A stretch of 64,000 nucleotides of DNA from Gilliamella bombi (GTDB lineage: Bacteria > Pseudomonadota > Gammaproteobacteria > Enterobacterales > Orbaceae): positions 815 through 64,814 of the forward strand of contig NZ_FMWS01000048.1 of NCBI RefSeq assembly GCF_900103255.1. Direction: 5' to 3'. Shown piece by piece: positions 2,852-30,804 of the stretch; position 1 is the stretch's first letter; every line of letters begins with the position of its first letter. The notes under the pieces were generated by a model. That model was not told the DNA's origin and made no database searches. It saw only the letters and a program-made list of their open reading frames with translations. A program made the translations under genes and the position numbers.

Positions 2852-3508
2852 CTATTTACTTTGAGCCATATATTCTTTTAAGCCCTTATCACGCAGCAAG
2901 CAACTAGGACACTTACCACATCCCCCTTCAACACCGTAATAACAGGTATGGGTATGTTTTTGAACATAATCAAGATAACCTAGTTTATCAGCCATTTCCC
3001 ACATTTGCGCTTTGGTTAAATACATCAGTGGCGTGATGAGATTAAACGCATAGTCCATGGCTAAATTCATTGATACATTCATTGATTTAATAAAGACATC
3101 ACGGCAATCTGGATAACCACTAAAATCGGTTTCACAAACTCCAATAATAATGTCAGAAATTCCTTGTTGCTTAGCATGACAGCCAGCCAAAAGTAAAAAA
3201 AGCATATTACGCCCATCAACGAAGGTATTAGGGTAATCGCCATCTTGAGCGGCTTTAATTTCTTGAGCGTCATCAATCAACGCATTATTTGTAGTTTGTT
3301 TGATAACTGATGTATCAATGACAGTTTGCTCAATACCAAGATCATCTGCGATCCATTTGGCTTTTTCAAGCTCTATTGCGTGGCGTTGACCATAGCGAAA
3401 ACTGATTGCCTGAACGTTTTCACGTCCATAATCAGCAATGGCTTGCAGTAAGCAAGTGGTTGAGTCTTGCCCACCAGAAAATATAACTAGTGCTTTACGA
3501 GTTTGCAT
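2852..3508 (-). CDS. queC: 7-cyano-7-deazaguanine synthase QueC
   Basis: 218 aa. QueC converts 7-carboxy-7-deazaguanine to preQ0 using ATP and ammonia, in the cytoplasmic queuosine pathway. The PP-loop ATP-pyrophosphatase motif SGGQDS is at residues 11-16. The C-terminal zinc-binding cysteine cluster (HTCYYG, then GGCGKCPSC) is intact. Length is usual for the family. It starts 27 bases after queF and precedes yhhQ on the same strand. queD and queE, needed for the earlier steps, are not in the window. Confidence 0.96.
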
Positions 3509-3535: not shown

Positions 3536-4009
3536 TTAGCGATTATCCACTTTTTCTGGATACATGTCGTGATTGGCTAATCGATTAGCCGCAACTTGTT
3601 CCCAATGAGTATCCGATTTGCCATAATTGGCATAAGGATCAATCGAAATGCCACCTCGCGGAGTGAATTTTCCCCAGACTTCGATATATTTAGGATCCAT
3701 TAATTTAATCAGATCTTTCATAATGATATTAATGCAATCTTCATGGTAATCGCCATGATTACGAAAGCTGAACAGATAAAGTTTTAACGATTTACTTTCG
3801 ACCATTTTAATATTGGGCACGTATGAAATATAAATTGTCGCAAAATCAGGTTGCCCTGTGATAGGACAAAGACTAGTAAATTCTGGGCAATTAAATTTAA
3901 CAAAATAATCGTTATTCGGATGTTTATTAGCGAACGTTTCGAGTATTTCAGGACAATAGGTTGTTGGATAGCGAACAGACTGATCGCCTAGTAGTGTAAT
4001 TTTACTCAT
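3536..4009 (-). CDS. queF: NADPH-dependent 7-cyano-7-deazaguanine reductase QueF (short type)
   Basis: 157 aa. QueF reduces preQ0 to preQ1 with NADPH. The active-site Cys48 and Asp55 sit in [14 protein letters not shown], and the family segment [11 protein letters not shown] follows. At 157 aa this is the single-domain (YkvM, type I) form common in Firmicutes, not the roughly 280-residue two-domain form of Escherichia coli. It leads the queF-queC-yhhQ set. Its ribosome-binding site (AAGGA at about 4016-4020) is part of the proposed preQ1 riboswitch, so its own product would shut off its translation. Confidence 0.96.
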
Positions 4010-4014
4010 TATTT

Positions 4015-4053
4015 TTCCTTAGTTTTTTAGCGTGGGAGGTTCACGAACCACGT
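4015..4053 (-). promoter_or_regulatory. preQ1-I riboswitch controlling queF
   Basis: Read on the minus strand, P1 is CGTGG (4052-4048) pairing with CCACG (4035-4031). The loop contains TTCGTGAACCTC. The 3' tail CTAAAAAACTAAGGA (4030-4016) follows directly. The loop CCT can pair with AGG in the tail to make the H-type pseudoknot. This matches the class I preQ1 aptamer layout: short P1, A-rich tail, and a pseudoknot with an AAGGA that is also the Shine-Dalgarno of queF. Ligand-induced occlusion of the ribosome site is inferred from the known class. Confidence 0.85.
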
Positions 4054-4222
4054 AACAAGGCGCACACCATACTCTTTTTGCTTTAAAAAGTCTAGTATGA
4101 CAATAGATTTATAAAAAATGTAAAACTAACACCGTCAACAATAACTATTGATGGTGTTAATAATAAAATATCGTTGAAGAGCAAATAAATCAAGAATCGG
4201 GAAATACTCTGCCTGATATCGT

Positions 4223-4678
4223 TTATTTCGCTCCCAATTCTTTATAAAAATCAGATAATTTAGTTTTAGCTTCATTAAGTTCTTTTTCAGCATCAGCTAA
4301 TTTTGTTTGTTGTTTGACAATTTTCTGTTCATTATCTTTATCTTTCGCTTTTGATTTTGATTTTGATTTTGCTTGTTCTAATTCTTTAGTTCTTTCAGCC
4401 ACTTTATTTGATTTTTCGTTAATCTCTTTTTTATATTTGGCTTCTAAATCATCATTTGAACAATGCTTATTTAAGTTACGTAATGATTTTTCAAGCCCTT
4501 GGATTTGATGAGAATTATTATTTTTTTTAGCATAATCAATCTGTTTTTCAATAGCCTGTTTTTTGCTTTCACACGTAAGTCCCTTTAGTTGTTCATTTGA
4601 AGCATAAGCACCAAATGATAATGAGATAGCTAATGTAATGACACTCAATTTACTTATTAACCGAATTACTGATTTCAT
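4223..4678 (-). CDS. DUF1090 periplasmic protein (YqjC-like)
   Basis: 151 aa with a typical signal peptide (about 1-26, ending near AYAS). The mature part is highly charged and alpha-helical. Two cysteines occur at GLTCESK and NKHCSND. A long predicted coiled coil (about 75-145) includes a short run of KSKSKSKAKDKD. This matches the DUF1090 family, whose function is not established. It is 18 bases downstream of coaA on the same strand and may be cotranscribed. The lysine/serine stretch is low complexity. Confidence 0.75.
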   Translation of the reverse strand: MKSVIRLISKLSVITLAISLSFGAYASNEQLKGLTCESKKQAIEKQIDYAKKNNNSHQIQGLEKSLRNLNKHCSNDDLEAKYKKEINEKSNKVAERTKELEQAKSKSKSKAKDKDNEQKIVKQQTKLADAEKELNEAKTKLSDFYKELGAK

Positions 4679-30207: not shown

Positions 30208-30534
30208 TTTCATAATTTTTTAGTGACTTTAAAAATCAATTAAAATTTCAACGTTCAAAATTTGACTTTTATCAATTAAAAAATAATTTCCTGAAAATTC
30301 AATAAAACTTTTTTTTTATAAAAAAAAAATTATTATTCACATCTTGCTTTTGATTATAATTTATGCGGTAATATCACTGGGTAAACAACAAAGTACAAAA
30401 TAGTGAATAACAATGAACCACAATAATGTATTTTTAAGCACATTATCTTGGCTTTTAGTTACATTATTAACACGATGTTAAAACCCATACGGCCGTAATG
30501 GCTAATTATTAATTATTGTTAGGATGTCTAGTAA
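30208..30534 (+). promoter_or_regulatory. cold-shock gene leader region
   Basis: About 325 bases without a large gene. A TATAAT at 30355-30360 would place transcription start near 30367 and give a 5' leader of about 165 bases, close to the long structured leaders of cspA-type genes. The -35 is poor. The leader holds a 22-codon ORF. The upstream half is very A/T-rich, with runs of A and T at about 30305-30330. Confidence 0.5.
30413..30481 (+). CDS. possible 22-residue leader peptide before the cold-shock gene
   Basis: ATG-initiated frame of 22 codons with a hydrophobic core (VFLSTLSWLLVTLLT), ending TAA 53 bases before the csp start. There is no clear Shine-Dalgarno. The location inside the presumed leader and its membrane-peptide character make it worth noting. 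It may be chance. Confidence 0.25.
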   Translation: MNHNNVFLSTLSWLLVTLLTRC

Positions 30535-30744
30535 ATGAATAAAAAAACAGGCCAAGTAAAATGGTTTAATGAAAGTAAAGGTTTTGGTTTTATTACCCCT
30601 GCGGATGGAAGTAAAGATGTATTTGTTCACTTTTCAGCTATTTCAGGTGATGGTTTTAAAACATTAGCTGAAGGACAACAAGTTGAATTTGCTATCCAAG
30701 ATAGCCCTCGTGGACCTGCAGCTGCTGAAGTCGTTGTAATCTAA
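30535..30744 (+). CDS. cold-shock family RNA chaperone (CspC/CspE-like)
   Basis: 69 aa, single OB-fold cold-shock domain that binds single-stranded RNA and DNA and melts structure. RNP1 is KGFGFITP and RNP2 is [23 protein letters not shown] and [10 protein letters not shown] are close to CspC/CspE. Whether it is cold-inducible or constitutive cannot be told from the protein; the long leader is compatible with either. Both flanks are insulated by terminators, so it is monocistronic. Confidence 0.95.
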
Positions 30745-30770
30745 TTGAAACTTTAGAATTTCATATTAGA

Positions 30771-30804
30771 AAAACGCTCACTCACAAAGTGAGCGTTTTT
30801 TTTT
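30771..30804 (+). terminator. intrinsic terminator after the cold-shock gene
   Basis: AACGCTCAC and GTGAGCGTT form the stem across TCACAAA, followed by a run of eight T residues ending near 30804. It is on the plus strand, about 27 bases past the stop. Confidence 0.9.

Follow-up and report, generated by a model that had tools for sequence, protein, structure and literature searches.

Does the short leader in front of queF in Gilliamella bombi hold a preQ1 riboswitch and, if so, of which type is it, how would it reach the ribosome-binding site and which genes would it govern? In the stretch of 64,000 nucleotides analysed here (the window, contig NZ_FMWS01000048.1), three genes follow one another on the minus strand: queF (3536–4009, start codon ATG at 4009–4007), encoding a short, unimodular, Bacillota-type preQ0 reductase of 157 residues; queC (2852–3508), encoding preQ0 synthase; and yhhQ (2125–2805), encoding a preQ0/preQ1 transporter. 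These identities, already proposed in a first-pass annotation made from the sequence alone, agree with the NCBIfam models TIGR03139 (178 bits), TIGR00364 (258 bits) and PRK11212 (351 bits), and the gaps between the genes are short, with 27 nucleotides separating queF from queC and 46 separating queC from yhhQ.

A scan of the 64-kb window with Rfam covariance models bears out the preQ1-I riboswitch that had been suggested before queF. RF00522 (PreQ1, class I) matches the minus strand at 4057–4013 with 53.2 bits against a gathering threshold of 39 – an E-value of 5.4e-8 for the 64-kb window, far above the level of chance – and the match spans the full model, from position 1 to 45. Read 5′ to 3′ on the minus strand, the leader is UGUUA-CGUGG-UUCGUGAACCUC-CCACG-CUAAAAAA-CUAAGGAAAAAUA-AUG; aptamer bases are numbered below along this strand, with C4052 as position 1. 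The 5′ strand of P1, CGUGG (4052–4048), forms five Watson–Crick pairs with the 3′ strand, CCACG (4035–4031), and this stem covaries across phyla, with 13 strand combinations and compensatory pair changes among relatives. Between the two strands lies the loop UUCGUGAACCUC (4047–4036), in which CCU (C14–U16, 4039–4037) is a candidate anti-Shine–Dalgarno sequence, complementary to AGG at 4019–4017. Following the alignment to RF00522, which also places the 3′ strand of P1, the A-rich L3 CUAAAAAA occupies 4030–4023; it leads into the tail CUAAGGA (4022–4016), whose first three bases, CUA (C31-U32-A33), lie at 4022–4020. The Shine–Dalgarno sequence AAGGA (4019–4015) overlaps the 3′ end of the aptamer, with seven nucleotides between its GG and the ATG. 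The five-pair stem, the A-rich tail and the complementary loop are thus all present inside 4015–4053, as first read. Folding the leader as a single strand is uninformative (z +1.4), as expected for a pseudoknot. The riboswitch class is a known one, of which this element is a convincing new example, if an ordinary one as a sensor.

Published work divides these aptamers by a few bases: type I has UU atop the 5′ strand of P1, UC before the 3′ strand and a C-U-A tail, whereas type II has AC, and type III combines UU with AC and a full pairing of AAGG (PMC8752633, PMC11625349). At the positions named in PMC8752633, the queF leader has U6 and U7 (4047 and 4046), C8 (4045), U16 (4037), C17 (4036) – the specificity base of the α site – and, in the tail, C31, the β-site specificity base of type I, followed by U32 and A33. 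With U6 U7, U16 C17 and C31 U32 A33 in place, the aptamer is of type I, and the loop and tail bases of this type are conserved across its relatives. Type I switches of Haemophilus, Neisseria and Carnobacterium bind two stacked preQ1 molecules cooperatively; for the sequences of H. influenzae and Neisseria gonorrhoeae, binding of two preQ1 with a K_D near 50 nM and positive cooperativity has been reported (PMC8752633). As the pocket bases are the same, the switch before queF would be expected to bind two ligands as well.

The element is not alone. The 2.62-Mb genome contains exactly two RF00522 matches, each directly before queuosine genes, and the second (G000:C24:71941–71986, locus L001) lies immediately upstream of queD–queE. 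This copy has a 13-nucleotide loop, UUCGUAAUCCAUC, and a CUAGGA tail, and in Gilliamella copies P1 usually has a small GUUAG/CUAAC hairpin on its 5′ side. With the genome itself excluded, 34 of the family's first 35 genomes have a match, and most carry both copies; the single genome without one is 59% complete. The first-pass annotation had named a covariance-model scan as its check, and what came back was a match both here and in orthologues across the genus and the family, not the absence that it had held to count against the idea. Across 394 genomes of the order, matches are confined to this family and one other, which we take to be Pasteurellaceae from its queC–queD–queE operon. Every one of the 106 aptamers extracted (about 96 distinct places) precedes que genes: those of the own family head queF–queC–yhhQ or queD–queE, those of the other family queC(–queD–queE) or queD. 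No plasmid relatives were found. Further afield, que operon leaders from Clostridia and Fusobacterium (L122, L125, L128, L131, L133, L137, L150, L183 and others) contain a preQ1-I-like element with a fixed P1 (GACAG/CUGUC), a loop ending in CC(A/U)UC and the tail AAACAAAACUAGG; as RF00522 gives them about 25 bits at most, a scan at the gathering threshold passes them over. The stretch between the element and queD in L137 contains a terminator-like hairpin.

Upstream of the aptamer, a candidate promoter consists of a −35 element TAGACT (4094–4089), a 17-nucleotide spacer and a −10 element TATGGT (4071–4066). In 31 queF leaders of Gilliamella, the arrangement is conserved at a fixed distance from the aptamer; it is weak against the consensus (8 of 12 positions), and a consensus promoter scan of the leader gave nothing above chance. 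Its position suggests that the transcript would begin at about 4058–4060, some seven nucleotides before P1. The kept sequence, CTAGACTTTT-N6-AAAAAgAGTAnGGTGTGCG (4066–4095 in the window, 31 Gilliamella leaders), is partly palindromic, and its conservation takes in a larger share of the spacer than a simple promoter would call for. Beside the operon lies the gene for a DUF1090 protein (4223–4678), which evolves fast: it is mostly 35–65% identical among Gilliamella-group genomes, as against 80–99% in the same genomes for the CoaA and QueF that flank it. In one genome (G001, L036 5336–5689), queC and yhhQ are separated by a 117-residue open reading frame, which resembles the start of a heparan-α-glucosaminide acetyltransferase-like membrane protein and is perhaps a remnant.

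We are highly confident that this type I, class I preQ1 riboswitch, set in a leader of about 50 nucleotides, lowers translation of queF–queC–yhhQ when preQ1 is plentiful. The tail doubles as the Shine–Dalgarno sequence seven nucleotides from the ATG and leaves no room for a terminator – no terminator-like site was found between the aptamer and the queF start codon – so that control is best read as translational, through ribosome access. As we infer it, the mechanism would run as follows: in the absence of preQ1, the Shine–Dalgarno sequence AAGGA would be open and the operon translated; with preQ1 plentiful, the pocket formed by P1 and the CUA of the tail would probably take up two stacked molecules, the first read by C17 and the second by C31 and U7, and the bound ligand would lock an H-type pseudoknot against the Shine–Dalgarno sequence, so that initiation on queF falls. 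That queC and yhhQ are co-regulated with queF is assumed from the gene spacing; they may decrease with queF through coupling or mRNA decay, yet repression of translation at the first gene need not extend to yhhQ, the third. Rho-dependent effects are possible. The sister copy would act likewise on queD–queE, such that synthesis and import drop together.

How the ligand-bound aptamer keeps the ribosome off is the point at which readings diverge. According to the first-pass annotation, the pseudoknot swallows the ribosome site of queF: C14 and C15 of L2, perhaps with U16, would form Watson–Crick pairs with A34-G35-G36 and bury the whole core of the Shine–Dalgarno sequence, in place of the 'indirect occlusion' described for type I. 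The CCU is indeed complementary to the AGG, and CC in the loop is associated with GG in the tail: in a set of 57 distinct combinations of loop and tail, drawn from several phyla, the tail has GG in all 51 with a CC loop but in only two of the six with a single C (Fisher p 4e-5, ignoring kinship). GG is also retained in the clostridial leader L137, whose tail lies a long way from the start codon and is followed by the terminator-like hairpin. No CCU:AGG helix, however, is reported in the published type I structure. In that structure, from Carnobacterium antarcticum (Can), U16 contacts the β preQ1, with A33 and G34 turned towards G9 and C10 rather than L2 (PMC8752633, PMC11625349); in the Carnobacterium switch, moreover, SHAPE shows no preQ1-dependent change at the Shine–Dalgarno nucleotides (PMC11625349). 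CC and GG are almost invariant, which leaves no true compensatory changes to observe, and the six single-C exceptions stem from few, related lineages; for these reasons, and given the contrary U16 and SHAPE data, the association of CC with GG is suggestive, a hint rather than proof, and we regard full burial as doubtful. Slightly less probable still is the combined proposition that the L2 CC of type I switches pairs with the tail GG to bury the core while the Gilliamella que steps and importer run on two parallel switches. If true, the CC–GG helix would be an addition to the published type I model, with the core buried in those members whose aptamer overlaps the Shine–Dalgarno sequence.

Two other pairings were considered and set aside. 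The contact between positions 10 and 34 proposed from the Can structure is Watson–Crick in 9 of 47 cases, against 15 expected by shuffling, which leaves a pair of the C10–G34 kind unsupported in these relatives, in agreement with the reported dispensability of G34 pairing in the Carnobacterium switch (PMC11625349). The upstream CCUU (4060–4057) serves as an alternative anti-Shine–Dalgarno sequence in the single-sequence fold, but relatives have GCUU or GUUU there.

The remaining readings concern the type and the level of control. A type III switch like that of E. coli yhhQ, with one preQ1 bound and four Shine–Dalgarno nucleotides buried, might be expected from the shared bacterial order, the presence of yhhQ in the operon, the UU after P1 and the AAGG of the tail, but is very improbable here, since type III needs AC before the 3′ strand of P1, where this leader has UC (4037–4036) together with a CUA tail (PMC11625349). 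Attenuation of transcription, which in B. subtilis queC works through an intrinsic terminator, recalls the hairpin 3′ of the element in a Bacillota relative, yet it is equally implausible with the aptamer's GG only seven nucleotides from the ATG, nothing terminator-like in between, and the Shine–Dalgarno sequence overlapping the aptamer in copies of both the own and the Pasteurellaceae-like family.

The reductase has a history of its own. In the PDB, it is closest to 4f8b and 4fgc, a QueF of 165 residues, which we take to be that of B. subtilis, and among the matches listed it is 78–87% identical to proteins of Bacillota, Eggerthellaceae and Fusobacterium; every one of the ten nearest QueF loci found in named genomes comes from a Gilliamella species. 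Among 119 sampled genomes of the order, the short form occurs only in the six from the own family; matches in the other families are 30–46% identical, mostly in frames of 270–300 residues, the length of the two-module form. Because the Bacillota-type short form is, in this sample, restricted to this family while other families have proteins of about 280 residues, queF was probably displaced by transfer. That the switch arrived together with it was considered and is not supported, as only one of 20 scanned loci with a close QueF (Listeria) has an Rfam match; with P1 and loop nearer the Pasteurellaceae-like copies, the riboswitch need not share the origin of queF.

As for the rest of the pathway, the de novo steps queD and queE lie outside the queF–queC–yhhQ operon, and tgt and queA are found together on C116. 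QueH was found at G000:C65:38212–38748 and a genome-wide search found no QueG above its cut-off, on which grounds the last step, epoxyqueuosine reduction, is probably of the QueH type. The window also holds a cspA thermoregulator leader (30374–30802; RF01766, 106 bits). The two riboswitches cover queD, queE, queC, queF and the importer, a regulon layout that is mildly new; the literature searched contained no paper on how Gilliamella regulates queuosine, which does not in itself prove novelty. QueD, QueE, QueC and QueF of a common bee-gut symbiont, along with its YhhQ importer, would thereby answer to a single metabolite by way of two type I switches, a simple natural system in which to study the cooperative two-ligand mechanism on an operon for synthesis plus import. 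The wide comparative set, for its part, brings the L2 CC/tail GG hint to a matter unsettled in the literature, namely how type I reaches the ribosome site.

Among known systems, the type I switch of Haemophilus influenzae (RF00522; PMC8752633) shares with the queF leader its class, the bases U6, U7, U16, C17, A30 and C31 and a proteobacterial host. Its mode is translational, listed as indirect occlusion of the Shine–Dalgarno sequence (PMC11625349), and the same mode is proposed here. Whereas the Pasteurellaceae-like copies head queC–queD–queE, the Gilliamella set is split into queF–queC–yhhQ and queD–queE, with one switch each. The Carnobacterium antarcticum switch is alike in the bases of its two-ligand pocket and in a Shine–Dalgarno sequence at its 3′ edge, but has C10 and G34 where the queF leader has U10 and A34 plus an extra A before GG (CUAAGG); this relative represses without strong burial of the Shine–Dalgarno sequence (PMC11625349). 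The type III preQ1-I switch of E. coli (PMC10622847), from the same bacterial order, represses the same importer gene, yhhQ, but has AC before the 3′ strand of P1, binds one ligand and is reported upstream of yhhQ itself; in Gilliamella bombi, the corresponding bases are UC, and yhhQ comes third in an operon headed by queF.
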